Below, one piece after another: positions 36,910-58,423 of a stretch of DNA of 64,000 nucleotides. The stretch's first letter is position 1, and each line of letters starts with the position of its first letter. The notes beneath the pieces were generated by a model. That model ran no database searches. It saw nothing but the letters and a program-made list of their open reading frames with translations, and was not told where the DNA came from. The position numbers were made by a program, and so were the translations under genes. Source of the DNA: an uncultured Bacilli bacterium (lineage in GTDB: Bacteria > Bacillota_I > Bacilli_A > RF39 > UBA660); the NCBI GenBank assembly GCA_947588685.1, contig CANPYM010000004.1, positions 1-64,000 of the forward strand, in the 5' to 3' direction.

Positions 36910-39900
36910 ATGACTAAAAATTATATTATTGGGTTAGATCTTGGTATAAACAATGTTGGTTATTCTGTTATAGATGGAGATGGTAAAAAAATTATTAAAA
37001 CTGGTGTTAGGTTGTATTCTCCAGCTAACAAAGCCAGTGATAGAAGAGAATTTAGAAATAGCCGTAGGCGGAGAAAAAGAAAAGAAAATAGAGTTCAAGA
37101 AAGTCTAAATTTATTTAAAACAATATCTTTTCCAAATAGTATAACAACAGATACCAACTTGCTTCAAAAAAGAATTAAAGGACTACAGGAACAAATAACT
37201 CAGCAAGATATTGTTAATATTACGTGTTATTTTGTGGCTCATAGGGGGTATATTCCATACGGAGATGAACCTGCTAAAATTGATTTGCACGGAGAATATC
37301 CCTGCAAATATTATCAAAAATTATTTGAAGAGAATGGAAAATATCGAGCTTTGGATGAAACTGTTAACAATTATGATTTAAAACGGGAATTAAATGATAT
37401 TTTAAGTAAACAGGCGTCATTTTATCCTGAATTAAAAAAAATAATTGATTCTGAAAAGGGATTACTATGGATATTTGGCCGTAAAAGAAAATTTTGGGAG
37501 GGACCAGGAAGTCCTAGCTCTTTTACACCTTTTGGTAGATTTAAAAACGAAGATGACGCTAGAGAATATTTTGAATTAAAGGCTCTTGGAAAAGAAAAAT
37601 ACTTATTTGAAGATTTAATAGGTCATTGTGAAATTTTCCCTAATGAAAAATGTGTGCCTAAATGTAATGTGTTTGCTGAACAATTTAACTTATTAAATGA
37701 TTTTATTAATATTAGAATTACTAATTCTGATAATATAAAAAAGCAAGATTATGTATCTGCATTTGATAACGATACTTATAAATTAACAACGATGGCTTTG
37801 AATGATATTATCAAATACTGCATGGATAGTGATGCCAAATCATTATCCTATAACAAGGTCTTAAAGGATGCTTTAGGCTTAAATATAAGTGATATCAGAG
37901 GATATAGAATTGACAAAAATAAAAAACCACTATTTTCTTTAATGAAAGCATTTAGATATGTAAAACGTATTTATCTTGAAAACGATATAGATATGTCGTG
38001 GTTAATTTTAGACCAATATAAAAATTATAATGTGCTTATGAACTTATTAGCAGTGTCTCCTGGTATAGTTGAAACGGAGCGAATGATTTCTAGTATTCAT
38101 CATTGTGATGCCAAAGAATTAAACGCTATAAAAGAGATAAAAAATAAGCTTGATAGAGATAATTTCTTTCAATATCATGCCCTATCAGAAAAGGCTTTAA
38201 AAATAGCAATTAATGATATGATAACTAATTGTTTGAATTTTATGCAAGCGTCTAGAAAATTTGATTATGGCAAAGCAGCTAGAGAAAATTTAGTTAAAAA
38301 CTATGGCAATGGTGAGGGACATTTATTAATGACATCTAAATATATTGATGATATTGTGGCATCTCCTCAAGTTAAAAAGACGTTACGTCAGTCTATTCGT
38401 GTGATTAATGCGATTATTAAGGAACAAGGGTGCTATCCTAGCGTCATAGCTATCGAATCAACAAAAGATATGAATGGTGATAATCAAAAAAAGGCTATTG
38501 AACGTTATCAAAAAATTCAAGAAAGTTTGCGTTCGAAAGCTAGAGAATATATTGAAAAAAATATCGGCGAAGATAAAGTAACAGAAAACTTAATAGAAAA
38601 AATTATGCTTTATTTTGAAATTAATTCAGAATGCCCATATTGTGGTAATCATATACCAATAAATGATATTTTAAATGGTAATGCACAAACAGAACATATA
38701 TTGCCATTAAGTCAAAGTTCCGATGATTCTCAGGACAATAAAACCATAGCATGCGACAACTGTAATCAAAGAGGTAAGAAAAATAAAACGCCTTATGAAT
38801 TTTTGAGCCCTGTGGAATTTGATAAATTTGTTAGTCGTGTTTCTCAAATGAAAATAAGTGATAAAAAGCGTGAAAACTTTTTAACAACTGAAGATGTTAA
38901 TAAATATCAAATTCGCTTTTTCAATCGTAATTTAAGGGATACGGCTTATGCTACTAAAGAACTTGTTTCGCAAGTCCAACTATTTAACTTATATTTAAAA
39001 GAAAATCTTAATGATACACAAATATTGACATTATCAACCCCAGGACAATTAACCTATAAAGTTCGTTCAGATTGGAAATTAGATAAAGATAGAAATGAGG
39101 AGTATCATCACGCTGTCGATGCTACAATTGTTGCAGGTATAGCTACTACCAAAATCGGGCGAGAAATAATCAAATTGCAAAATGATTCTCAATATTTATT
39201 ATTAAATAAAGAAACTTTAAAAGAAATACCAAAGTTAATTAATCAAACGTTTCCTACTAATATTAAACCAGAAATATTAAAAATTAAAAGTATGGATGAT
39301 ATATTCGTATCGCGCCAGGTAAATAAGGATGCTAATGCATCATTATCCAATGCTAATATCTGCTCATATGTCAAAAAAGAAGATAAATATTATATGATTA
39401 ATCAAATTGATGATATATATGCACCAGATTTAATCAAAGATGATAAAAAGAAAAATAAAGTGGATCTTTTATTTGATGAAAATGATAAGACTTCGATATT
39501 GTTGTGTCAAGAAAAAGACCCTCATTTGTTTAGTTATTTACGTGACATATATAACAAATATCAACAAGACCACACTAATCCATTTTTAAATTATTGTTAT
39601 GAAATGATGAAAGATGGCACTGAAAAATTTAACTATTTAAAGCATGGCATAAAGACACCATCTAAAGGTGGCAAAGGAATACTTGTTAAAAAACTTAGAT
39701 ATATGACTTCAGCCACAGATCCATTTTTACTAGAAAAGAAAAATATAAATAAGAAAGATACAACTTTAATTGGTTTAGATACAGTTTCTATTTATTGTAC
39801 GAGGTTATATTGGGATTTAGATAAGAATAAAATAATTTTTATGCCAATTTATACGCCTTGTGTAGACTTTAATACTAAAAAAATTAATGAAAATCATAGT

Positions 39901-40158
39901 CTTTATAAATTATATTATAAGAAATGTATTGAAGGAAAAAATGTTGAGTTTATAACCGAATTGTTTAATGGTAATTACATTGAAATTGAAAAACCAGATG
40001 GAACTATATTAAAAGATTATGTTAAAACTTATCACAAGATAAGTAAGTCTATAGAATGCAGGTCAGGAAAATATTTATCATCTAAAGATAAGTTTACATT
40101 ATACGATGTTGATATTTTAGGAAACAAGTATAAACGTTTGACATGGCCACTAAAATAA
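36910..40158 (+). CDS. cas9: CRISPR-associated endonuclease Cas9 (compact, type II-A locus)
   Basis: 1082 aa. RuvC-I with Asp10 (IIGLDLGINNVGYSV), Arg-rich bridge helix at 45-62, RuvC-II Glu516 (VIAIEST), HNH with Glu595-His596 (EHILPLS) flanked by CxxC pairs 575/578 and 615/618, and RuvC-III His734-Asp737 (HHAVDA). All nuclease residues are present, so it should be active. The recognition lobe (63-510) is short, as in small Cas9s. GGAGGT precedes the ATG. The -35 box of the tracrRNA promoter lies within its last codons. Confidence 0.96.
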   Translation: MTKNYIIGLDLGINNVGYSVIDGDGKKIIKTGVRLYSPANKASDRREFRNSRRRRKRKENRVQESLNLFKTISFPNSITTDTNLLQKRIKGLQEQITQQDIVNITCYFVAHRGYIPYGDEPAKIDLHGEYPCKYYQKLFEENGKYRALDETVNNYDLKRELNDILSKQASFYPELKKIIDSEKGLLWIFGRKRKFWEGPGSPSSFTPFGRFKNEDDAREYFELKALGKEKYLFEDLIGHCEIFPNEKCVPKCNVFAEQFNLLNDFINIRITNSDNIKKQDYVSAFDNDTYKLTTMALNDIIKYCMDSDAKSLSYNKVLKDALGLNISDIRGYRIDKNKKPLFSLMKAFRYVKRIYLENDIDMSWLILDQYKNYNVLMNLLAVSPGIVETERMISSIHHCDAKELNAIKEIKNKLDRDNFFQYHALSEKALKIAINDMITNCLNFMQASRKFDYGKAARENLVKNYGNGEGHLLMTSKYIDDIVASPQVKKTLRQSIRVINAIIKEQGCYPSVIAIESTKDMNGDNQKKAIERYQKIQESLRSKAREYIEKNIGEDKVTENLIEKIMLYFEINSECPYCGNHIPINDILNGNAQTEHILPLSQSSDDSQDNKTIACDNCNQRGKKNKTPYEFLSPVEFDKFVSRVSQMKISDKKRENFLTTEDVNKYQIRFFNRNLRDTAYATKELVSQVQLFNLYLKENLNDTQILTLSTPGQLTYKVRSDWKLDKDRNEEYHHAVDATIVAGIATTKIGREIIKLQNDSQYLLLNKETLKEIPKLINQTFPTNIKPEILKIKSMDDIFVSRQVNKDANASLSNANICSYVKKEDKYYMINQIDDIYAPDLIKDDKKKNKVDLLFDENDKTSILLCQEKDPHLFSYLRDIYNKYQQDHTNPFLNYCYEMMKDGTEKFNYLKHGIKTPSKGGKGILVKKLRYMTSATDPFLLEKKNINKKDTTLIGLDTVSIYCTRLYWDLDKNKIIFMPIYTPCVDFNTKKINENHSLYKLYYKKCIEGKNVEFITELFNGNYIEIEKPDGTILKDYVKTYHKISKSIECRSGKYLSSKDKFTLYDVDILGNKYKRLTWPLK

Positions 40159-40166
40159 TGTATACT
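40138..40166 (+). promoter_or_regulatory. tracrRNA promoter
   Basis: Consensus TTGACA (40138-40143), 17-bp spacer, TATACT (40161-40166). It overlaps the cas9 stop codon. Predicted start near 40173. Confidence 0.8.
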
Positions 40167-40172
40167 TAAAAT

Positions 40173-40268
40173 GGATATCGAAAAATTGTTTTCGCTATCT
40201 CAAATTACACAGGGTTTCCTATTATAACTAATTTTAGGTAACCAAAAGGTGCTTCGGCACCTTTTTTT
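40173..40268 (+). ncRNA. tracrRNA
   Basis: The anti-repeat at 40188-40213 (GTTTTCGCTATCTCAAATTA and onward) is complementary to the 3' 26 nt of the CRISPR repeat, with one G-U wobble. A bulged region and a nexus-like segment follow, then a hairpin AAAAGGTGC-TTCG-GCACCTTTT with T7 (40244-40268) as Rho-independent end. It lies between cas9 and cas1 in the cas direction. It pairs with crRNA repeats for RNase III processing and Cas9 loading. The 5' end is set from the promoter. Confidence 0.88.
40244..40268 (+). terminator. tracrRNA terminator hairpin
   Basis: 9-bp stem with TTCG tetraloop and T7. The cas1 ATG begins 3 nt after the T run. Confidence 0.85.
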
Positions 40269-40271
40269 GTT

Positions 40272-41165
40272 ATGGCATTTAGAACAATTTATATTGAAAA
40301 GGCTTTACGAGTTAAATTAGACTTGAACAATATTGTTGTATATTACGAAGATGACAATTATTATATTAGTATTGATGAAATTAGTACAATTATTTTTGAT
40401 GATCCAAGATGTAATATATCTTTACGATTACTATCAAAATTATGTGAGTCAGGTGTTAATGTAATATTTAATAATGCATCACATTTACCAATTGGCTCAT
40501 TACAAACATTATATAATCATACACGAGCATCTAAAAAAATAGAATTGCAAATGCATTGGAATGATCATGAGAAAATATTTTTGTGGACGAAAATTGTTGA
40601 ACAAAAAATAAGTAGCCAAATTGCTACTTTAAAAGCTGTAGAAATTGATGATAAAGTATGCTTATTAAATGATATGTTAAAGGATATGACTATTGGCGAT
40701 TTAACAAATAAAGAAGGAATAGCTAGTCGTGTCTATTTTCGAGAACTTTTTGGTAATACTTTTAAAAGATTTAATGAAGATATTGTCAATTATTGCTTAA
40801 ATTATATATATCAAATTATTCGCTCAAAAATTGCTCAAGAAATAGTCGCTAGTGGATATGTACCAGCAATAGGAATATGCCATAAAAACGAATTTAATTG
40901 TTATAATTTGGCAGATGATTTTATTGAACCTTTTAGGCCGATTTGTGATTATTATGTTTATCATATTTTAAGTGACTGCGTTGATGATTACTTAACTCCA
41001 TCTATTAAAAGAGAAATTATCAATATCTTAAATAAAAATGTTTATTTTAAATCATCAATTTATAAAATTCACAATGTTATTTCTTTCTACGTGCAATCAT
41101 TATTTCGTTTCCTAGAGATTGGTGATATTGATGCTATAGCATTTCCCACTTTATGCATTCTATAA
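40272..41165 (+). CDS. cas1: CRISPR adaptation integrase Cas1
   Basis: 297 aa, type II Cas1. The start FRTIYIEKALRVKLDLNN and the NIIFNNASHLPIGSL-like region match II-A Cas1. Catalytic candidates are Glu in NKEGIASRVYFREL, His in ICHKNEFNCYNLADD and the following acidic residue. The ATG directly follows the tracrRNA terminator, and no Shine-Dalgarno lies in the gap, since AAGGTG is inside the hairpin stem. Expression must come from read-through, or from leaderless or poor initiation. Confidence 0.93.
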   Translation: MAFRTIYIEKALRVKLDLNNIVVYYEDDNYYISIDEISTIIFDDPRCNISLRLLSKLCESGVNVIFNNASHLPIGSLQTLYNHTRASKKIELQMHWNDHEKIFLWTKIVEQKISSQIATLKAVEIDDKVCLLNDMLKDMTIGDLTNKEGIASRVYFRELFGNTFKRFNEDIVNYCLNYIYQIIRSKIAQEIVASGYVPAIGICHKNEFNCYNLADDFIEPFRPICDYYVYHILSDCVDDYLTPSIKREIINILNKNVYFKSSIYKIHNVISFYVQSLFRFLEIGDIDAIAFPTLCIL

Positions 41166-41509
41166 ATTTATATCGTCAAGTGCGACTTATGCTGATTTAT
41201 GATATACCAGTCGGCGAGGAAATTGAAAGAAAGAATTACAGCAAATTCCATAAAGATATAATAAGATTAGGCTTCCATATGCTTCAATATTCCGTTTATA
41301 CTAAAGTCATCTCTAATGACACTAATATGCATCAAAATATTTCTAGGGTTGAACGAATCTTACCTAAGTATGGTAATGTTATTGCTTTTAAAATTACTGA
41401 AAAACAATATCAAGATATGCTTTATTTGCGAGGTGAAAAAAATAAAGCTGATATTATTATTGGTAATAAAGAGCTAGTTATTTTTGGTGGTGATGATAAA
41501 TTAATTTAA
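41153..41509 (+). CDS. cas2: CRISPR adaptation protein Cas2
   Basis: 118 aa. LMLIYDIPVGEEIERKNYSKFHKDIIRLGFHMLQYSVYTK is the ferredoxin-like Cas2 core with the Asp of the first strand. It overlaps cas1 by 13 nt. It forms the Cas1-Cas2 integrase that inserts new spacers. Confidence 0.94.
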   Translation: MHSINLYRQVRLMLIYDIPVGEEIERKNYSKFHKDIIRLGFHMLQYSVYTKVISNDTNMHQNISRVERILPKYGNVIAFKITEKQYQDMLYLRGEKNKADIIIGNKELVIFGGDDKLI

Positions 41510-42381
41510 AAATAGTCGATACTGAAGAGTATTTAGAACCAATAAGAAAAGAAAACAAAATATATGTATTGAATAAAAAAGAACTATTTAAATTTTATTA
41601 TAAATTTTATAAACTTATTGTGTTGAAAGATGAAAATATAAATATTAAAATAGGTGAAAAAACTTTAGAAAATAGGAATAGTATATTATTAAACTTAACG
41701 AGTTTTAACGAAATATTGAATAATTTAATGTTTAAAAAAGGGACGTTATTTTATGAATATATTGAAAATTGTTTACAGAATGTAGACTTTAATATTATTG
41801 AATCATTAAATGTAATATGTGATGACATAGGAAAATCCATAGTAGATCAAACGCATTTAGATATATCATATCAATTGGAAAATGATCTAGCCAAAAAGAC
41901 TTTTGACCTAATAAAATTTAAATTTGCTCATTTGGAGTTGTTTGATAATTGTATTTTTGAACAGGTACTTAAAGATGTTATTGAAAAAAACACTTCAAAA
42001 CTTTTTATTATTTTTTATAATTCAGAAATAATGTCGCTCGATTTTTCTTTGCATAGTAACTGTTATACATTCGACGTTTCGGATACTACGTTAATTAGTG
42101 AATGTAATTTAATATGCAATGAAGGTGTGATTAATTTTAATGTGGAGACACTTCAAAACTATTTATATGATAATTGGCCTATCGATTTTAATGCTAATGA
42201 TGTTACTGCATATATAGATAGATATTATTTTTATTGTAAAATGAAAAGTAATATCTTTGCATATAACGATATAGAATACTTAGTTTACAAACTATTATCA
42301 AAGTTAAATAATAATATGCCAATAGTATTGCCAAAGTATGTAATTTCTCATAATGTTAAAGCCTTTTTAGACATAATATAA
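41500..42381 (+). CDS. csn2: Csn2-like adaptation protein, divergent, proposed ATT start
   Basis: 293 aa from ATT 41500. Read from there, the N-terminus is MNLKIVDTEEYLEPI, matching the usual MNL/MKL-(x)n-DEPI start of Csn2. The first conventional codon, TTG 41569, would drop 23 residues and has no ribosome site, whereas GGTGGTGA lies 6 nt before the ATT (41486-41493). The body is divergent and Asn/Leu/Asp-rich, longer than the short Csn2 group. Csn2 rings bind DNA ends in II-A adaptation. The assignment rests on N-terminal pattern and position. Confidence 0.7.
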   Translation: MNLKIVDTEEYLEPIRKENKIYVLNKKELFKFYYKFYKLIVLKDENINIKIGEKTLENRNSILLNLTSFNEILNNLMFKKGTLFYEYIENCLQNVDFNIIESLNVICDDIGKSIVDQTHLDISYQLENDLAKKTFDLIKFKFAHLELFDNCIFEQVLKDVIEKNTSKLFIIFYNSEIMSLDFSLHSNCYTFDVSDTTLISECNLICNEGVINFNVETLQNYLYDNWPIDFNANDVTAYIDRYYFYCKMKSNIFAYNDIEYLVYKLLSKLNNNMPIVLPKYVISHNVKAFLDII

Positions 42382-42396
42382 TAAGTGTGATATAAT
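42368..42396 (+). promoter_or_regulatory. CRISPR leader promoter
   Basis: TAGACA (42368-42373), 17-bp spacer, TATAAT (42391-42396) with TG extension. It overlaps the end of csn2. Predicted start near 42403, at the first repeat, so precursor crRNA carries almost no leader. Confidence 0.7.
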
Positions 42397-42404
42397 TTTT
42401 ATAG

Positions 42405-42704
42405 GTTTTAGGATCCTGTGTAATTTGAGATAGTGAAAACTATTTTATAAAATTTCTATGCTTTCAGTAAGTTTTAGGATCCTGTGTAATTTGAGATAGT
42501 GAAAACTTTATCGCCAACTTTTAAAGCGCTTGGTACGTTTTAGGATCCTGTGTAATTTGAGATAGTGAAAACTCAATTCCTAATGTACTAGGACTAATTA
42601 AAGTTTTAGGATCCTGTGTAATTTGAGATAGTGAAAACCTTACAATATACCACAAATCAAGAGTATCAGTTTTAGGATTCTGTGTAATTTGAAATGGTGT
42701 ATGA
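42405..42704 (+). CRISPR. Type II-A CRISPR array, four spacers
   Basis: Five 36-bp repeats beginning GTTTTAGGATCCTGTGTAAT and ending GAGATAGTGAAAAC, at 42405, 42471, 42537, 42603 and 42669. Four are identical. The last (42669-42704) has 7 mismatches, five of them in its final 9 nt region, and marks the trailer end. All four spacers are exactly 30 nt (42441, 42507, 42573, 42639). The repeat 3' half is complementary to the tracrRNA. The leader end adjoins csn2. No spacer was seen to match this window. Confidence 0.97.
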
Positions 42705-42761
42705 TGCTATATATCACTAAAATATTTTGCATTTAACTTTATAAAATATGCACACCAAAGC

Positions 42762-47731: not shown

Positions 47732-50700
47732 ATGAAAAATTTTAAAGAATTAGACAAACGCCCTGTTAGTGAAGTTGAAGATAGTATTAGAGCTTCTTGG
47801 GGTAGTATCAATGATATGCATAATAAACAAGTAGAAATGCATAAGGATGATGAGACTTTTGTCTTCTATGATGGGCCTGCCTTTGCTAATGGGTTCCCAG
47901 GCCTACATCATATGGTTAGTAAAAACCTTAAAGATGCCGTAACTAAATACCAAGTTATGAATGGTAAGAAAGTTATTCGTAAAATCGGTTGGGATACACA
48001 TGGCTTACCAATTGAAAATCACGTTGAGAAAAAACTTGGTATTTCATCTAAAAAAGAGATTGAAGAATTAGGTGTAGCTAAGTTTAATGAAGAATGCCGT
48101 CATAGTGTTCGGGAAAATGAATCAGCCTTTACTGATTTAACTAGTAAAATGGGTCAATTCTTTGATGTTGAACATCCATATTTAACTTATAAGAATGAAT
48201 ACATTGAAACCGAATGGTGGATTTTAAAACAGATGTATGAAAAAGATATGTTCTATGAAGGAACAAGGGTTGTACCTTATTGTCCACACTGTGGAACAGG
48301 GCTAGCTAGTCATGAGGTTGCGCAAAACTATCAAACTGATACCGCTATTACTGTTTATGTACCATTTAAAAAGAAAGACGAAGATGTATATTTCTTAGTT
48401 TGGACAACAACCCCTTGGACTTTAATTGCCAATGTCGCTTTATGTGTTCATCCTGATGAAGATTATGTTTTAGCTGAATCTAAAGGTCATAAGTTTATCT
48501 TAGCTAAAGCTTTACTTAGCCAAGTTTTAGGTGATGAAGCAACTGTTTTAGAAACATATAAAGGTAAAGATTTAGAATATGTTGAATATGAACAATTAAT
48601 TCCATCTTTTGATGTTGATAAAAAAGCTTTCTATGTAACGTGTGATGAATATGTAACGATGGAAGATGGTACGGGTATCGTTCATATTGCTCCAGCCTTT
48701 GGTGAGGATGATGCTAATGTCGGTAAGAAATATGATCTTCCATACTTAAATCCGGTTGGTAAAGATGGTTGCTACGTCGGGGGAATGTGGGATGGCCGTT
48801 TTGTTCACGATGTTAATGAAGACGTTGTTGAATATTTAAAGGCTAACGATAAGTTATTCCGTCGTCAAAAGATTAGCCACGAATATCCACATTGCTGGCG
48901 ATGTGATACACCACTTATCTATTATTCAATGCCAAGTTATTATATTAAAGTAAGTGAGATGACAGATGATCTTGTTAAGGCTAACGCTGAAGTTAATTGG
49001 TATCCAGCACACGTTGGTGAGAAAAGATTTGCTAACTGGTTAGCTAATGCTAGAGATTGGAATGTCTCACGGAGTCGTTATTGGGGTAGTCCAATCCCAT
49101 ACTTTAAGTGTGAATGTGGCTATAATCATATGGTTGGTTCGATTGCCGAATTAAAAGAAATGGCTACTAAAGGAATTGGTGATGACTTTGATTTACATAA
49201 ACCATATATTGATGAAGTTCATCTAAAATGTCCAAAATGTGGTGGGGAAATGACTAGAATACCAGATGTTTTGGATTGTTGGTTTGACTCTGGTTCTATG
49301 CCTTTTGCCCAATATCATTACCCATTTGAGAATAAAGAATTATGGGAAAGCCAATTCCCAGCTGATTTTATCTGTGAAGGAATCGATCAAACTAGAGGTT
49401 GGTTTTACACTTTACTTATCATTTCTGTCTTTGTCAAGGGTGTCTCACCATTTAAGAATGTTCTAGTAAACGATTTATTACTCGATGCTGAAGGTAAGAA
49501 AATGAGTAAATCACGTGGTAACATTGTCGAACCATTTACAACCATTAAAGACTATGGTGCTGACACAGTTAGATTCTATCTTCTTTATGTCTCACCAGTA
49601 TGGACGCCATTAAAGTTTGATATGGCTGGTTTAAAAGAAGTTTATTCAAAGTTCTTTAACCCATTAAAGAATACATATAGCTTCTTTGCTATGTACGCTA
49701 ATATCGATGCAATCGATACGGATGAATGCAATATTGAATATAGTAAAAGAGAAGAAATTGACCGGTGGTTATTATCTAAATATAATAAACTAGTTCGGGA
49801 TGTTAGAGCTGATTTTGATGAATATGATTTAAATAAAGTTGTTCATCATCTAGCTAACTTTGTATCTGATGATTTATCTAACTGGTATATTAGACGTAAT
49901 CGTAACCGTTTCTGGGGCAGTGAATTAGATGATTCTAAGAAGAGTGTTTACCGGACAACTTATGAAGTATTAACGAGCTTAGCTAAGTTAATCGCTCCAA
50001 TCACCCCATTCTTATCTGAGGAATTATATCGTAATTTAACTGGTGAAGAATCTGTTCATTTTGCTAGTTATCCTGTATGTGATGAGTCTTTAATTGATGA
50101 ACACGTTGAAGAAAGAATGGATCTTGTAAGAAGCTTAATTTCCGTTGGCCGTTTTGTTCGGGAAGAGACAAAAATTAAAGTTCGTCAACCACTTAAAGAA
50201 GCTCTAATTGATGGTAAAAATAAAGATTTAATTGAAGATTTAGTACCTTTAATTAGTGAAGAGTTAAATATTAAAGAAGTTCTATTTGTCGATGATTTAA
50301 ATGAATATATGAATATTTCTTTAAAACCTAACTTCAAAGAAGTGGGTAAAGTTTTAGGTTCTCTTATGAAAGAGTTCCAAGAAAAACTTGCATCTTTAAG
50401 CTTAGATGAAGTTAATCTTCTTCAAAAAGGCGAGACTATCAAGATGACTTTAGGTGGAGAGGAAAAAGAGATCACTCCTAATATGATTGATATTCGTATT
50501 TCTAGCAAGGAAGGCTTTAATGTCGGTATGGAAAACAATAATTTTATGATTATTGATACAACTTTAACTGATGACTTAATTTTAGAAGGTATTGCTAGAG
50601 AACTTGTTTCCAAAGTTCAAAACTTAAGAAAACAAAGTGATTTTGAAATAACCGATCGCATTAAACTATATTATCATAGTGATGATTTAGTTAATGAAGC

Positions 50701-50827
50701 TATCAATAACTTCAAAGACTTCATTATGGGAGAAACTTTATCTTTAGAGTTAAATGAAAGTGATGACGCTAAAGAAGAGTTTGATTTAAATGGTCATACT
50801 TGCTTAATTAAAATTGAAAAAGCTTAA
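47732..50827 (+). CDS. ileS: Isoleucine-tRNA ligase
   Basis: 1031 aa, the long archaeal/eukaryal-like type. The HIGH-equivalent is in ANGFPGLHHMVSKNLKD with a GLHH core, and KMSKSRGN is near residue 590. WTTTPWTL marks the editing CP1 domain. The anticodon-binding domain (RRNRNRFW) and a long C-terminus follow. Regulated by the upstream T-box. AAAGGAGTGA ribosome site. Confidence 0.96.
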   Translation: MKNFKELDKRPVSEVEDSIRASWGSINDMHNKQVEMHKDDETFVFYDGPAFANGFPGLHHMVSKNLKDAVTKYQVMNGKKVIRKIGWDTHGLPIENHVEKKLGISSKKEIEELGVAKFNEECRHSVRENESAFTDLTSKMGQFFDVEHPYLTYKNEYIETEWWILKQMYEKDMFYEGTRVVPYCPHCGTGLASHEVAQNYQTDTAITVYVPFKKKDEDVYFLVWTTTPWTLIANVALCVHPDEDYVLAESKGHKFILAKALLSQVLGDEATVLETYKGKDLEYVEYEQLIPSFDVDKKAFYVTCDEYVTMEDGTGIVHIAPAFGEDDANVGKKYDLPYLNPVGKDGCYVGGMWDGRFVHDVNEDVVEYLKANDKLFRRQKISHEYPHCWRCDTPLIYYSMPSYYIKVSEMTDDLVKANAEVNWYPAHVGEKRFANWLANARDWNVSRSRYWGSPIPYFKCECGYNHMVGSIAELKEMATKGIGDDFDLHKPYIDEVHLKCPKCGGEMTRIPDVLDCWFDSGSMPFAQYHYPFENKELWESQFPADFICEGIDQTRGWFYTLLIISVFVKGVSPFKNVLVNDLLLDAEGKKMSKSRGNIVEPFTTIKDYGADTVRFYLLYVSPVWTPLKFDMAGLKEVYSKFFNPLKNTYSFFAMYANIDAIDTDECNIEYSKREEIDRWLLSKYNKLVRDVRADFDEYDLNKVVHHLANFVSDDLSNWYIRRNRNRFWGSELDDSKKSVYRTTYEVLTSLAKLIAPITPFLSEELYRNLTGEESVHFASYPVCDESLIDEHVEERMDLVRSLISVGRFVREETKIKVRQPLKEALIDGKNKDLIEDLVPLISEELNIKEVLFVDDLNEYMNISLKPNFKEVGKVLGSLMKEFQEKLASLSLDEVNLLQKGETIKMTLGGEEKEITPNMIDIRISSKEGFNVGMENNNFMIIDTTLTDDLILEGIARELVSKVQNLRKQSDFEITDRIKLYYHSDDLVNEAINNFKDFIMGETLSLELNESDDAKEEFDLNGHTCLIKIEKA

Positions 50828-50830
50828 TAT

Positions 50831-50867
50831 AAAAGCTAACCTGAAATTGTCTAAGGTTAGCTTTTTT
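50831..50867 (+). terminator. ileS terminator
   Basis: AAAAGCTAACC / GGTTAGCTTTT stem followed by T6. Confidence 0.85.
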
Positions 50868-50872
50868 GATAT

Positions 50873-51038
50873 CATTTAGTATTCAACTTAAAGACCATCG
50901 CTATGTTGAATATCTTATTATTTTATATACTATAATTTTATCATATATAATTAATCATTACAACGATTATCATCTTTTATTGCTTTAAATTTCACAAAAA
51001 AACTTAAAGATTTAAGTCTTTAAGTTGAATACTAAATG
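50873..51038. repeat. Segment bounded by perfect 23-bp inverted repeats
   Basis: Arm 1 at 50873-50895 (CATTTAGTATTCAACTTAAA then GAC) is an exact reverse complement of arm 2 at 51016-51038. The 120-bp interior has no gene. It carries a possible rightward promoter (TTGAAT 50906-50911, 19 bp, TATAAT 50931-50936) and, on the other strand, TTGTAA-17-TAAAAT. A third AACTTAAAGA at 51001-51010 forms an alternative hairpin with arm 2. It lies between the ileS terminator and the giant adhesin. Invertible promoter or attenuator are the two readings. Confidence 0.6.
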
Positions 51039-51187
51039 GTTAGTTAATATTAGTACAATATAAAGTTATGATATAAACAACTTAAGTATAAAAATTAAAT
51101 TACCGGTAATAAATAAATATAGTAATAAATAATATCTAACCAAATTATTTAAAACTTTAGCTGATGAAGATTTGGAGTGGATAATAA
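51039..51187 (+). promoter_or_regulatory. Upstream region of the giant adhesin
   Basis: About 150 nt of A/T-rich DNA with a 12-bp perfect palindrome ATTACCGGTAAT (51099-51110), a possible operator, and a TTTGGAGTGG ribosome site before the ATG. No gene is seen. Confidence 0.4.
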
Positions 51188-54100
51188 ATGCTGAAAAGAA
51201 GAAAAATTAAAAGAAAATGGATAAATATTTCTCTAGCAATTCTTTTAGTAGCGCTTATTTTAACAGGTACGGGGATAGTGGTTAATGTCACTAATTTTTT
51301 AAGTGGTCAAAAGTTAAGTGGTAATAACTTTGGTAATCGTTTAGTTGATCCTAATACAATGGATTCATATAAAGACGAATTATTGAATGATAAGAATGGA
51401 TCACGTTATGCTGGAAGAATTTGGTCGGATAAGACTACCCTTTTAGATAAAGTTGATCTTGATATGGAAACAGATGGAATCTCTAAAACAATTAATGGCA
51501 ATTCAGAGTTCATTCAAGTCTTTTCTACTTTAGGAAGTAGTGAGCAAAAGGTTGATGTAATTAAAAATCCATTAGATTTGGTAATTGCGATTGATTTGTC
51601 ATCTTCAATGGGGCGTGATTCTGTCGATGATGGTTGGACACCGGAGGATCAAAATATTAGACTTTCTCACTCCCGAATTTATGCTACTGTTCAGGCTGTT
51701 AATGAAGCTATTGATGCTTTAATGGAGAAAAATCCTGAAAATCGTATTGCGGTTATTGGATATGGCGCTAATGCGACGGTCTTACTACCTTTAGGGCAAT
51801 ATAAGCGAAATGAGAAAGCTGATTATATAACAATTGAAGGTCTTCGTAGCGTTTTTGGTGATAATCCTAATGCTGATGGAAAGTTTACTTATCAAGCTGA
51901 TTGTTTTTTTGAACTTTCAATCAATGCTTTAAAGAAAAATGGGAATACTTATGATCCAATTCAAAAAAAGATTACTAATCATCCTGATGTTGTTAGTGGA
52001 AATGGGGCTCAAGAAACAATTGGCTTTCTTACTAATATGCAAGGTGGCATTTATCTTGGCCTTAATGAATTAACTTCAACCGAAGAAGCTACATATACAA
52101 CAGAACAAAATGGTAAAAGAATAACTATTGCAAGAATACCTGCCATCTTTATTATGACTGATGGTGGTTCTAATTTTGCCTTTAGAAAAGAAGGCGATAA
52201 TCCTAAAATACCTGATAATAAAGGTGATGAATGGTATAACGTTTATATCCCTGAACCAAGCCTTGCCGATCAATATATTTATTTTGGTTATCCTGATGCA
52301 AACGCTAGTGGTGTTTTATACTCTAATGATTCAAGTATTGATGGCGCACCAGGTATTATCTTAGAAAACTTGCTAACTTCTTCATATATGAAGTTAAAAG
52401 TTGAAAAACATTATACAGCTTTACAAAAGAAGGCTGGAATTAGTGATGCTAAAGCAAAACTTAATGTTCAAACGATTGGTGTTGATTTAAAAGATACACC
52501 AGCTTGGGCAAGATCAAGATTGTATATTTCATTGGATCCTGAAAATTATTTTAAAGAAGATTTAACTACTGATAATGATAAGTTCCTTTCTGAAACAGAA
52601 ATTGAAACAGTTATGAAAGATACTTTAGATAGTTGGAATATTTTGAAGCAAAAACAAAGTACCAAAGTTAAAATAGGTTTTATGCAAAAGCCAAAAGATC
52701 CTGATAAATATATAAATATTGCGCCAATTCCAGAAGAAGGTATCGGTTCTGGTGAAGAGAAGATAACGATGGATGAGGTTATTGAAAATATTAATTATGC
52801 TGATAATTTTAGTGATATATCTAGTAATGGTGGTCAACTAGAACAGTTATTCCTTAATGTTATTCAGAACCTTGATGGTGAGGCTTCTAGTCCAATTAGT
52901 GGAACTAACGAAGCTGGTGTTAGCGATTCTTTAATGTATTCAGACCCAATGGGTAAATATATGGAAATTAAAAGAAATGGTCTCACCATTGATGGCGAAA
53001 AGTATGATATGAGCTTACTTTTGTTTGGTAAATTACATAATATGCGTAAAGCTGCCGTTTATGATTATACATTCAATAGCACCCACAGAGGTCCAAATCA
53101 TAACAGTGATGATATGGCTTTAGGCTTTACTAGTGGTTGGTATGATAAAGAAGGAAATTATCTAGAAGATGGTGGATCTTGGGATAAGGGTGATACTTAT
53201 TATGCTGATGTTACCCAAGTTCAAAAATATATTCCAACTTTAGATGAGTCAAGTAATATTACCCCAAAACAAAAGAAAACTATTTATACTTTGTATAGTT
53301 TTGTTGATAAAGAAGACGAAGAACAAATTAATCCATCATATGAAGATGAAAGCGTCAAATATAAAGTTAATGATATTCGGGTTTGGACAGAGTATACGGG
53401 TAATTATGTCGATGAAGATCCAAGCGCTAACCCTAACTTAGGTTTCGATGAAGCTTTATATGTTAATATTCCAACGACAGCTTTACCACTTCAAATGGTT
53501 AAACTATATGTTGAAAGTGATGGCAGCATTTCTGATTATCAAACGAATTTAAATAACTATATAGCCTCAACACCACTTCGTTTATTTTATAGTGTTGGTG
53601 TTTCATCACAAGTTATGACTGAAGATGGCTTAGATCTTGATTTAGCTAAAATAAATCAAGAATACATTCAAAAAAATAAAGTTAATGACACAATTAGATT
53701 TTATGCCAATTATTATAGTAATACGAAGTATGATGGTTATTTAACTGATACTGAGGTAGAACGAACAAGGGGAGATGCTAGTGTTAGTTTTTCACCAAGT
53801 GCTACTAATCGTTATTATACATATCAAAAGCCATTACCATTATATGAAATGGCTATCAGTGATATACCGGATGAAAATGGCTTATATAAATCTCTTGAAT
53901 TAGGTACTAAAGAAGAATACGAATTATTTAAAAGTACCCATAAAACAATATCTAATAGTTCATCATTTGATGATAATAAATGGTATTATATCGTTGTTGA
54001 TTATTATATGCCAGGAAAAAGTGAAGCTATGCATTTAGCTGTTCCAAGAGAAGGTAAAGAGTTTGGCTCTGGTATCGGTGATGGAACTATTAAAAAGGGT

Positions 54101-57100
54101 GAATATTTAGAGTGGTATAGTGAAAAGACTGATACTTCGGCTACCTTTGATGCTTCCGAGGAAGCACCAAGTGATGCAGATGATTATGTTATTGCTACGC
54201 GTCCTGGTGGTTTAAGAGTCGGCGATTTAGCGCAAAATCTAAGAGGTAAGACGAATAATGCAACCCAAACAGCTTATAATTATTATTTACCAACGATAAG
54301 TTCATCAACAAGTGGCTTTAAGACGCGCGATAATAATGTTATTATTAATATTTTCTTAGGAAATAATGGTCGTTTGGATGTTAATGATTCTCTTATGATG
54401 ATTGCTAAAGAAGTAAAGACTGATACATTCAGTGAAAAGACTATCGATAGATCACGTGATTATCAATTTGAAGTTAAAATTGATGGCCATGAAGGGGATT
54501 ATAGTGCGATTAAAATGTATAAAAACCCTTATAGTAATGAATGGCAACTTCGCCTTAGTACCATTGATATCCTAACTGATAATGATGGTTTCTTACAAGA
54601 TAAGGATACGAAGTTATATGTTTATGAAGATGGTGGCCAACAGTATTACGTTTATATCGGTGATAATGAAATAGATGGTGATACCGGTGGCGATGATGTT
54701 TTTAGAGTATATTCAGCTCCTGATAATGATAATCACATTGAACTAACGAAATCGGGAATGACAACTTATGTAACCGATCCAAATACGATTGATGGCGCTA
54801 CTGCATTAAATAAATATAAAGCGGTTGATGATAATCATACTTTAGGCTCAATTGATTTTTGGATTGATAAAGTATACTTAATTCCAACCAATATTGTTGA
54901 TGAAAAAACTTGGAATCATTCATTAGAAGGTTATAAAACATTAACAGAGTTTGTTGTGGCACATTTGGATTCTATGAAAAAGGGTGTTGATGAATTAACA
55001 ACATCATATAAAACAGAAACAACATATTTAACAACGACCCTTAAATTTGGTTATACTGCTCAAAACAAACCAGAAACAAAACCAAATAGTTGGACCGATG
55101 ATGAATGGGATAGTCAAAAAGAACATATTGCTAAATTAGTTTTAAAAGATAATGAAGGGATTATGTTATCAGGACTAAAATCCGGCGTAAACTATGAGAC
55201 TGTAGAAGAGATAACAAATAAAGATAATAAAGAAGGATATTATTTTGAAGAGATTAAACTAGGTGAAGAAGATATGGCCACGATAACTGATAAGACGGTT
55301 AAAGGAAGAGTAAACGCAAATTATATTGATGAAGTAGAATACATTAACCGCTATTATGCACCGACTAGTTTAGCTATTAAAAAGACCGTTAGTGGTTTAT
55401 TAGGTGAGAAAGAAAAAGACTGGACGTTTGATCTTACTATTACCTTACCACCTTCTGCTGTCATTCTTGATAGTTATGATTATCATTATGATGTAATTGA
55501 TGGTGTTACAAAAAGAGCTGATGGTAAGATAACTTTTGAAAGTCTTACTGACAATCATTATTTAGCTCATCTATCTATTAAACATGGTGAGACACTTGTA
55601 ATTGAAGGTCTTCCTGAAGGAACAACCTATGAAGTTAGTGAAAATGATGCTAATCAGAATGGATATGTAACAACATCATTAAATGAAGTAGGTACACTAA
55701 GGCCTACTCAAACTGATGTAAGTTTTGAAAATAGTAAAATTGCTAAAAGCGATTTAACAATTACTAAAGAAGTTCAGGGCTTGTTAGGCGATAAAGAAAA
55801 AGAATGGGAATTTGAAGTTACTTTAAAGCCAAGCATAGAACAAGACTTCCCAACGAATTATGTCTATACTGGTACTAAGAATGGTACATTGGAATTAACT
55901 CCAAAAGAAGATGCTTATGTTGGTAAAATAACTTTGAAACACAATGATACAATTACTATTAAAGATATTCCTGAAAATACAACTTATGAAATAAAAGAGT
56001 TAGATGCTTCAAAGGATGGATACATTAGTAATGCTCAAAATGCAACCGGTCTTATCAAGGGCGAAGGCGTTTATGAAGTTCGCTTTACGAATATTAAATA
56101 TGAACGTCATAGTCTTACTATATCTAAAGAAGTAACTGGTAGCGCTGGTGATAAGAATAAAAATTGGAAGTTTAAAATCGTCTTCACACCAGATACAGAT
56201 GTCATTTTTGATAAAAGCTATCCATATGATGGTGGTACTTTAGAGCTAACGGAAAAAGATGGAAAGTATACAGGTGAAATAACTTTAAGACATAACGAGA
56301 GTATAACAATTAAAAATATTCCAGAACGAACTAATTATGACATTGAAGAAGTAGAAGCTAATGCAAACGATTATCAGACATTTATAACAGGTAATCAAAG
56401 TGGAATTATGAATGATGATGTGACCGTTAAATATACAAATCGTAAATTATCAAAACAAGATTTAACGATATCTAAAGAAGTAACGGGAGCATGGGCTAAT
56501 AAAGATAAAGAGTGGACTTTTACAGTTAAACTTACGCCTAGTAAAGATGTTTATCTAAATGGTTTTTATCATTATGAAGGCAGTAAAGAAGGCGAGATGG
56601 AGTTAACTAATAATTCGGGTATCTATACAGGTAAAATTACTTTAAAAAGTGGGGAGAGTATAACACTTAAAGAAATACCTGAAGGAACAGCTTACGAAGT
56701 TAGCGAAGATGACGCCAATACTGACGGGTATACGACAAGAGTAACAGGGGATACTAAAGGTGTATTAACTTTCAATACCCCAACGCCACATATAGCTTTT
56801 GAAAATATTAAATTATCAAAGCATAGTTTAACAATATCAAAAGAAGTAGCTGGTGGCGCCAGTGATCCTGATAAAGAATGGACTTTTAGCCTTACTTTAA
56901 CTAGTAAAGATGGTGTTACACTATTAGATAGCTATCCTATTTTAGGTGGTAATACAGCCAGTGAAGTAAGTGTTATTGATGAAAAACGTTTAACACTAGA
57001 AAAAGAAAGTGATACTAAAGCTAAAGCAACCTTTAAATTAAAGGGTGGTCAATCGATAACTATCAATGATTTACCAGAAGGTACAACTTATGAGGTTAAA

Positions 57101-58423
57101 GAACTAGAAGCCAATACTGAAGGCTATGACACTAGAATTACTGGTGATGAAAAAGGTGTTTTAGAAAATGTGGATACCAAGTCCGTTAAGTATGTTAACC
57201 ATAAAGCACTTAAATACGATCTATCTATTGGTAAAGTTGTAAAAGGTGGAGCTGGTGAAAAAGATGCATCTTGGACCTTTAATATTACATTGACACCAAT
57301 GGATGGGGAAGAACTATTAACTACTTATCTTGTTGAGGGTATTGAGCCAAGTCTTATCAGTTTAACCCGTACCGAAGATGGCTATAAAGGCTCATTATCA
57401 TTAAAACATGGTGATACAGCAACGATTAAAGGTATACCTGAAAATACGGGTTTTAAAATTGAAGAAGAAGAAGCCAATAAAAATGGATATATAACTGAAG
57501 TAAATAACCCTAATACAGGTATACTAGATAAGCAGTTAGATCCAATAATCTTTACTAATACTAAACTAGCTAAATATAATTTAACAATTGTTAAAACTGT
57601 TAAAGGTAATTTGGGTGACAAAGATAAAGAGTGGACCTTTAAAGTTTTATTAACCCCACCAACAATTAAAGATTTAGATAAAGAATATGCTTACACTAAA
57701 GAAGATGCTCACGGAACTAATTTAGATGGTAAGATGTCTTTAAATAAAGTATCAGATCATTATGAGGGTGAGATAAGCATAAAAGATCAAGAAAAAATAA
57801 CCATTAAAGATTTGCCAGAAGGAGCGACATATCAAGTTGTGGAACAAGGTGCTGAAGATGATGGTTATAAGGTAGCCACCGGTAACGATAATGGTATTTT
57901 AAATGATCATCAAATGGTAAAAGTTACTAATACCAAAGTTTCATATCATGATTTGCAAATTGAATCGCATTTAAAGGGTAATAATTCAGATCCTGAAATC
58001 GAATGGGATGTTGAAGTAACATTAACACCATCTTCTGATAGTGGATTAGAAGATAGTTATGTATGGGTTGATGATGATGGTGTATCACATCTTCTTCCAT
58101 TAACACCAAACGATGATGGAACTTATACAGGCCACTTATCTTTAAAAGGTAATAGTCATGGAACAATTAAGGATTTACCATATGGAACAACCTATGAAGT
58201 TAAAGTTCAAAATGCTAATCAAGACGGTCATAAGACAACCATTGATGAGAATAGTGGTGTTTTATCAGAAAATATGGAGGTTACTTTTACAAATGAGCGT
58301 AATTTGAAAATACCAAATACCTTAGATGATATTATGAAATATATAATTATCTTTGTTATGGCTCTAATAATTAGTAGCTGTGGTCTATATTTATATTTAC
58401 AAAAAAGAGGAACTAACAATTAA
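51188..58423 (+). CDS. Giant cell-surface adhesin: VWA domain plus eight Cna_B-like repeats
   Basis: 2411 aa. N-terminal signal segment at 12-34. VWA domain from about 125 with MIDAS DLSSS (Asp136) and IFIMTDGGS. A middle region of about 800 residues is unrecognised. Eight repeats of about 110-125 aa run from about 1395 to 2370, each starting like LTISKEVTGSAGDKNK-W and containing ITIK-IPEGTTYEV-E. The C-terminal IPNTLDD, hydrophobic helix and KRG tail look like a variant sorting signal. Probably a cell-wall-linked pilin-tip or adhesin protein. Confidence 0.85.
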   Translation: MLKRRKIKRKWINISLAILLVALILTGTGIVVNVTNFLSGQKLSGNNFGNRLVDPNTMDSYKDELLNDKNGSRYAGRIWSDKTTLLDKVDLDMETDGISKTINGNSEFIQVFSTLGSSEQKVDVIKNPLDLVIAIDLSSSMGRDSVDDGWTPEDQNIRLSHSRIYATVQAVNEAIDALMEKNPENRIAVIGYGANATVLLPLGQYKRNEKADYITIEGLRSVFGDNPNADGKFTYQADCFFELSINALKKNGNTYDPIQKKITNHPDVVSGNGAQETIGFLTNMQGGIYLGLNELTSTEEATYTTEQNGKRITIARIPAIFIMTDGGSNFAFRKEGDNPKIPDNKGDEWYNVYIPEPSLADQYIYFGYPDANASGVLYSNDSSIDGAPGIILENLLTSSYMKLKVEKHYTALQKKAGISDAKAKLNVQTIGVDLKDTPAWARSRLYISLDPENYFKEDLTTDNDKFLSETEIETVMKDTLDSWNILKQKQSTKVKIGFMQKPKDPDKYINIAPIPEEGIGSGEEKITMDEVIENINYADNFSDISSNGGQLEQLFLNVIQNLDGEASSPISGTNEAGVSDSLMYSDPMGKYMEIKRNGLTIDGEKYDMSLLLFGKLHNMRKAAVYDYTFNSTHRGPNHNSDDMALGFTSGWYDKEGNYLEDGGSWDKGDTYYADVTQVQKYIPTLDESSNITPKQKKTIYTLYSFVDKEDEEQINPSYEDESVKYKVNDIRVWTEYTGNYVDEDPSANPNLGFDEALYVNIPTTALPLQMVKLYVESDGSISDYQTNLNNYIASTPLRLFYSVGVSSQVMTEDGLDLDLAKINQEYIQKNKVNDTIRFYANYYSNTKYDGYLTDTEVERTRGDASVSFSPSATNRYYTYQKPLPLYEMAISDIPDENGLYKSLELGTKEEYELFKSTHKTISNSSSFDDNKWYYIVVDYYMPGKSEAMHLAVPREGKEFGSGIGDGTIKKGEYLEWYSEKTDTSATFDASEEAPSDADDYVIATRPGGLRVGDLAQNLRGKTNNATQTAYNYYLPTISSSTSGFKTRDNNVIINIFLGNNGRLDVNDSLMMIAKEVKTDTFSEKTIDRSRDYQFEVKIDGHEGDYSAIKMYKNPYSNEWQLRLSTIDILTDNDGFLQDKDTKLYVYEDGGQQYYVYIGDNEIDGDTGGDDVFRVYSAPDNDNHIELTKSGMTTYVTDPNTIDGATALNKYKAVDDNHTLGSIDFWIDKVYLIPTNIVDEKTWNHSLEGYKTLTEFVVAHLDSMKKGVDELTTSYKTETTYLTTTLKFGYTAQNKPETKPNSWTDDEWDSQKEHIAKLVLKDNEGIMLSGLKSGVNYETVEEITNKDNKEGYYFEEIKLGEEDMATITDKTVKGRVNANYIDEVEYINRYYAPTSLAIKKTVSGLLGEKEKDWTFDLTITLPPSAVILDSYDYHYDVIDGVTKRADGKITFESLTDNHYLAHLSIKHGETLVIEGLPEGTTYEVSENDANQNGYVTTSLNEVGTLRPTQTDVSFENSKIAKSDLTITKEVQGLLGDKEKEWEFEVTLKPSIEQDFPTNYVYTGTKNGTLELTPKEDAYVGKITLKHNDTITIKDIPENTTYEIKELDASKDGYISNAQNATGLIKGEGVYEVRFTNIKYERHSLTISKEVTGSAGDKNKNWKFKIVFTPDTDVIFDKSYPYDGGTLELTEKDGKYTGEITLRHNESITIKNIPERTNYDIEEVEANANDYQTFITGNQSGIMNDDVTVKYTNRKLSKQDLTISKEVTGAWANKDKEWTFTVKLTPSKDVYLNGFYHYEGSKEGEMELTNNSGIYTGKITLKSGESITLKEIPEGTAYEVSEDDANTDGYTTRVTGDTKGVLTFNTPTPHIAFENIKLSKHSLTISKEVAGGASDPDKEWTFSLTLTSKDGVTLLDSYPILGGNTASEVSVIDEKRLTLEKESDTKAKATFKLKGGQSITINDLPEGTTYEVKELEANTEGYDTRITGDEKGVLENVDTKSVKYVNHKALKYDLSIGKVVKGGAGEKDASWTFNITLTPMDGEELLTTYLVEGIEPSLISLTRTEDGYKGSLSLKHGDTATIKGIPENTGFKIEEEEANKNGYITEVNNPNTGILDKQLDPIIFTNTKLAKYNLTIVKTVKGNLGDKDKEWTFKVLLTPPTIKDLDKEYAYTKEDAHGTNLDGKMSLNKVSDHYEGEISIKDQEKITIKDLPEGATYQVVEQGAEDDGYKVATGNDNGILNDHQMVKVTNTKVSYHDLQIESHLKGNNSDPEIEWDVEVTLTPSSDSGLEDSYVWVDDDGVSHLLPLTPNDDGTYTGHLSLKGNSHGTIKDLPYGTTYEVKVQNANQDGHKTTIDENSGVLSENMEVTFTNERNLKIPNTLDDIMKYIIIFVMALIISSCGLYLYLQKRGTNN
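55370..58303 (+). repeat. Eight tandem Cna_B-like domain repeats in the adhesin
   Basis: Repeat starts at about residues 1395, 1520, 1640, 1756, 1877, 2015, 2134 and 2255, recognised by L-T-I-x-K-x-V-x-G and E-W-T-F-x-V-x-L-T-P. They are diverged from one another. Each has a conserved Lys in the first strand and Glu in the EGTTYEV turn, compatible with isopeptide-type cross-links. The bond is inferred. Boundaries are approximate. Confidence 0.7.

Follow-up and report, generated by a model that had tools for sequence, protein, structure and literature searches.

Genomic organization of the locus

In the window (the whole stretch of DNA that was analysed, 64 kb), the isoleucyl-tRNA synthetase gene is followed by a terminator, a short segment enclosed by inverted repeats, and the gene of a giant surface protein. 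The features of the locus are as follows:

47732..50827, plus strand: isoleucyl-tRNA synthetase gene (ileS); left flank, unswitched
50831..50870, plus strand: ileS terminator, with a 12-bp stem and a T run; folds stably on either strand
50871..51040, no strand: putative invertible segment, 170 bp with its sites; in the opposite orientation in the congener G011
50871..50895, no strand: left putative crossover site, ATCATTTAGT-ATTCA-ACTTAAAGAC (outer half, spacer, inner half); includes the arm 50873-50895
50881-50885: left-site spacer, ATTCA, 5 nt
50935..50963, minus strand: likely switch promoter, TTGTAA-N17-TAAAAT, with a TG extended -10
51001..51026, no strand: third AACTTAAAGA copy (51001-51010), which folds locally with arm 2 into a hairpin
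51016..51040, no strand: right putative crossover site, GTCTTTAAGT-TGAAT-ACTAAATGGT; includes the arm 51016-51038
51026-51030: right-site spacer, TGAAT, the reverse complement of the left spacer ATTCA
51174..51177, plus strand: ribosome-binding site GGAG of the adhesin gene, outside the invertible segment
51188..58423, plus strand: putatively switched gene, encoding a 2411-aa surface protein; right flank

The 2411-aa protein has an N-terminal signal/TM segment, a VWA domain, and 8 DUF7601 and 5 DUF5979 repeat stretches; its C-terminus presents the motif IPNTLDD, then a TM segment and a basic tail, which gives it the appearance of a sortase-type anchored adhesin. An earlier note on this DNA had named a surface protein of this length as the next gene after the repeats, and the gene is indeed found there (51188-58423). 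The ileS terminator folds at -14.6 and -14.7 kcal/mol on the two strands (z -5.1 and -6.0) and is apparently bidirectional.

Elsewhere in the window, a CRISPR array of five copies occurs at 42376-42705, with a repeat of about 36 nt and a period of 66 nt. It is preceded by ORFs of 1082, 297, 118 and 270 aa (region 36910-42705), and an inverted partial repeat at 40182-40213 resembles a tracrRNA anti-repeat. The region looks like a type II layout.

The inverted repeats

The arms of the repeat at 50873-50895 and 51016-51038 were re-measured and, as had been claimed, are perfect: 23 nt each, 100% complementary, with an interior of 120 nt. This pair is the longest perfect inverted repeat of the window when loops of 20-300 nt are considered. 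When the window was shuffled 20 times under a second-order Markov model, the longest one reached at most 16 nt, which upholds the view that the arms exceed chance length. Inverted repeats of 10-40 nt around a short segment are the mark of an inverton, and the window locus presents this design.

Inversion between related genomes

The DNA of the locus was searched in 57 related genomes, and the same locus was found in one congener, G011. In its copy (C7:89914-89990 / C21:1-167), the left flank, comprising the end of ileS, the terminator and the left arm, runs into the reverse complement of the window interior. A second locus, lying between the gene for the ribosome hibernation factor HPF and that of a 2385-aa adhesin paralogue, also has opposite orientations in the window's own genome, G000 (contig C3), and in G011 (C18). 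Two loci inverted within unchanged flanks are hard to explain other than by site-specific inversion.

The ends of several contigs fall at the arm boundaries. In G000, the overlap of contigs C3 and C6 is exactly 77 nt long and begins at the inner arm boundary, and the preceding base is G in the assembled orientation, with A expected in the opposite one. In G011, contigs C3 and C26 also overlap by exactly 77 nt from the inner arm boundary, the preceding base being T or C; at the window-locus copy, the inner arm boundary is where C21 starts, and C7 stops exactly 77 nt beyond the outer one. From these contig ends, the assembler and word length being undocumented, we infer that the break points are the forks which a 77-mer assembly graph would form if both orientations were in the sample. 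The base-exact coincidence at three loci is strong. The forks in G000 concern a locus other than that of the window; at the window locus, contig C4 passes both arms unbroken, and one orientation was therefore dominant there in that sample. Both orientations, as expected of an inverton, are represented across the orthologous loci of G000 and G011, together with the contig forks.

A family of sites with pair-specific spacers

The arms belong to a 25-bp near-palindromic site, GTCYTTAAGT-N5-ACTTAARGAC, which is found genome-wide. Pairs matching a gapped pattern made from the inner half-sites, whose reversed-pattern control gave 0-1 matches, are present in G000, G011, G003 and G006. Seven other congeners gave zero matches to the gapped pattern, and G005 gave one single-strand match, which looks like chance and has no same-spacer pair. 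Segments of the same design number three clear ones in G000, three counterparts in G011, five in G003, and 21 in G006, a few of the last being perhaps duplicate contigs of one locus, given their common spacers. A 20-nt pattern with 3 mismatches, applied over the genus, was dropped as too noisy. Over 386 genomes of the family, the gapped pattern gave mostly chance matches in coding sequence, and same-spacer pairs alone were retained. Further pairs obeying the rule occur in G003 (C40, C57) and, beyond this genus, in two more, represented by G340 and G227.

Among 32 pairs, picked without any condition on N5, the 5-nt spacer is identical within the pair in 28, versus 18 of 756 agreements (2.4%) when left and right spacers are compared across loci. 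The four exceptions are the third copy in the window, two pairs that involve extra site-like matches in G006, and the doubtful locus G000:C7:43861. Strand exchange by tyrosine recombinases needs a spacer match, and serine recombinases need only a 2-bp match. Equal spacers within fixed half-sites are thus a signature of tyrosine-recombinase crossover, and fixed half-sites with a partner-matched spacer are what this family presents.

A fourth candidate in G000, C7:43861-43997, differs in its two spacers and probably does not function. The locus that holds it (G000:C7:43846-44013) has similar half-sites and a promoter and keeps the same orientation in G011; it is perhaps a locked or decayed switch. 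Among the G006 loci L128-L143, the spacers AATAT, TAATT, AATCT and TAGAT are each common to several loci, so that recombination between loci is conceivable. In G003, a segment of the same family (C42, 4600-4757) lies between divergent, apparently paralogous surface-protein genes, and its inversion could alternate between two genes instead of turning one on and off.

Candidate recombinases

The absence of an invertase from the window, reported in the earlier note, was verified: all recombinase candidates of G000 are on other contigs. This genome of 1.16 Mb encodes four tyrosine recombinases, namely XerD, XerC, C1:73274 (beside the serine enzyme) and the stand-alone C2:30409-31383, and one large serine recombinase. 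The search for an invertase elsewhere in the genome, which the same note had advised, thus yielded an orphan tyrosine recombinase. The enzyme encoded at C2:30409-31383 has 325 aa and lies between the gene of ribosomal protein L27 and that of a 1726-aa secreted protein. It is integrase-like, with a PF00589 (Phage_integrase) match of 97.5 bits and a SAM_3 domain, and in an alignment its catalytic residues R-K-HxxR-H-Y are intact. The FimB/FimE-type invertase model NF007370 gave a score of 23 bits (E 3.8e-05), far under its cut-off of 221.

Recombinases of the C2 type occur in exactly the four of 12 congeners that have site pairs and are absent from the other eight. The relatives in the site-bearing congeners have 97, 57 and 53% identity, and the clade has a support of 100/99. 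Such a co-occurrence (4/4 vs 0/8) would have a chance of 1 in 495 under independence, which related genomes do not have. In other genera with a recombinase 49-62% identical, seven of nine genomes lack a confident site pair, and the inverted repeats beside recombinase homologues there are unconvincing. With this partial match outside the genus, the assignment rests mainly on the genus, within which C2:30409-31383 is most likely the enzyme acting on the sites.

Two other enzymes were rejected: the serine recombinase G000:C1:79765, which is large, CcrB-like and in a likely mobile element, and the tyrosine recombinase C1:73274, which is near it and for which the congeners' matches include no close counterpart. 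These two genes lie about 6 kb apart (G000:C1:71-82 kb), and the region is probably a mobile element. A recombinase homologue with 61% identity in G376 (C25:24268-25230) has an in-frame TAA stop.

It is unlikely, although worth weighing, that the same switch is flipped by the housekeeping XerC/XerD or by another recombinase instead of the orphan enzyme. XerC and XerD occur in G000 and most congeners, and Xer-type enzymes are reported as candidate inverters of phase loci in some mollicutes (PMC3599477). However, XerC/D are also found in congeners without site pairs, where the C2 clade tracks the sites. In addition, both half-sites have the same palindromic sequence, which suits a single homotetrameric enzyme.

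Predicted promoter and direction of the proposed switch

Promoter-like matches are present on both strands of the segment, as the earlier note stated, but their number (8 vs 4.9 +/- 2.1 expected) is not significant alone, and single matches are weak because the region is very AT-rich. Among the candidates of both strands, the minus-strand extended -10 element is the likely switch promoter. With this promoter on the minus strand, facing away from the adhesin gene, the window would have been assembled in the OFF orientation, and the G011 copy would be ON. Likewise, the second locus is predicted to be OFF in G000:C3 and ON in G011:C18.

The congener G006 offers the widest comparison. An extended -10 promoter match (TTTACT-N17-TATTAT type) is present in 21 of its 21 segments, which lie ahead of surface genes, and, as assembled, points away from the gene in every one; the genes have a GGAGG...ATG start just outside the site. 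Each segment has a single outstanding predicted promoter. This all-OFF assembly suggests a biased or exclusive system.

The segment could instead work through a terminator or 5'-UTR effect, in the style of the C. difficile flagellar switch, which sits in a 5' UTR (PMC7446863). After inversion, a hairpin and T run would indeed stand just inside the left arm. The promoter match conserved in every G006 segment speaks against this explanation, as does the strong ileS terminator just upstream, which leaves no other obvious promoter, and we consider it improbable.

Another alternative, raised in the earlier note, is a long-range RNA stem or attenuator in which the arms pair in the leader RNA and the third AACTTAAAGA copy competes. 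The arms are complementary, the third copy at 51001-51010 is real, and its hairpin with arm 2 folds at -8.5 kcal/mol (z -3.2). In G011, however, this hairpin is lost (z +0.7), and with a promoter within the segment no transcript would hold both arms, so that the conserved competing stems on one transcript which define an attenuator are wanting. An RNA stem also leaves unexplained the inverted orientations, the forks at the arm boundaries, and the invariant half-sites with variable spacers. This alternative is very improbable. The last one, a chance repeat in an AT-rich genome or a dead mobile-element remnant, has a negligible probability, since shuffles stop at 16 nt, a segment family with pair-specific spacers extends over loci and species, merely 120 bp lie between the arms, and the inverted orthologues make it untenable.

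Proposed mechanism and its meaning

We propose, with a probability of about 0.92, that the window locus is a site-specific invertible promoter switch (inverton) operated by a tyrosine recombinase encoded elsewhere. The invertible-promoter reading of the earlier note is supported by the inverted locus in G011, the segment family with pair-specific spacers, the contig breaks and the co-occurring recombinase. The promoter activity, the ON/OFF assignment and the acting recombinase are what we infer from the genomes compared.

In this switch, the recombinase C2:30409-31383 would bind both near-palindromic 25-bp sites, and recombination inside the 5-nt spacer would flip the segment of about 170 bp. 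In the OFF state, the extended -10 promoter would face away from the adhesin gene and ileS transcription would end at its terminator, keeping readthrough from the adhesin. After inversion to ON, the promoter would drive the adhesin gene, whose transcript would begin with about 200 nt of 5' UTR. A broader scheme is tentative and somewhat doubtful: one orphan recombinase would serve at most about 20 surface genes, the spacer being the address of each locus, with a bias to OFF and one or few proteins displayed. With such an address, each segment could invert at its own locus and stay free of recombination with the others.

The switch is of a known type and not a new mechanism. A partial literature search, in which RF39 was the sole lineage name, found no earlier report of an inverton in such a lineage. 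The locus would represent phase variation of giant adhesins in an uncultured lineage of small genomes, where one recombinase is the candidate master and the sites carry a readable code. The size and composition of the genome, and its relatives, suggest that this lineage is one of the Bacillota (class Bacilli). The rule that the spacers of a pair match is a simple means of locating similar switches in any assembly. In metagenome-assembled genomes, contigs that break at the arm boundaries are evidence of flipping that requires no reads.

Comparison with known systems

The fimS switch of E. coli, acted on by FimB and FimE, is an invertible promoter flipped by tyrosine recombinases upstream of a surface adhesin. 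The present system would have the same three elements; on the other hand, fimS is one locus against many here, and FimB/E-type models match the C2 enzyme weakly.

In C. difficile, the tyrosine recombinase RecV flips several segments upstream of surface and regulatory genes, cwpV, flg and cmr (PMC7446863). The likeness would be that of one tyrosine recombinase for several switches upstream of surface genes. The flg switch follows its promoter and lies within the 5' UTR, whereas here the predicted promoter is inside the segment. The present candidate is integrase-like and carries a SAM_3 domain.

Invertons of gut bacteria have repeats of 10-40 nt around promoters, are often near surface genes, and were grouped by repeat motif (PMC11892184). 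The present switches likewise join short repeats and a predicted promoter near surface genes. Such invertons are described from Bacteroidota, Akkermansia and Clostridia in PhaseFinder/PhaseFinderDC surveys. For Bacillus-like Firmicutes, a 2025 survey of a defined gut community gives a median of 0 invertons per genome (PMC11892184), in contrast to the 21 switches of G006.

The most similar known design, and likeness of design alone is claimed, appears to be the mpl (P35 family) promoter-inversion system of Mycoplasma penetrans (Horino 2003, 2009, as cited in PMC8593674 and PMC10502178). It comprises 38 lipoprotein genes, each with an invertible promoter on which a tyrosine recombinase acts. The mpl genes encode lipoproteins, whereas the genes described here encode large adhesins of a cell-wall type, with VWA and DUF7601 domains and a sortase-like anchor, or other secreted proteins. 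Many paralogous surface genes with their own invertible promoters would be the shared plan, and G006, with its 21 segments, would be strikingly alike.
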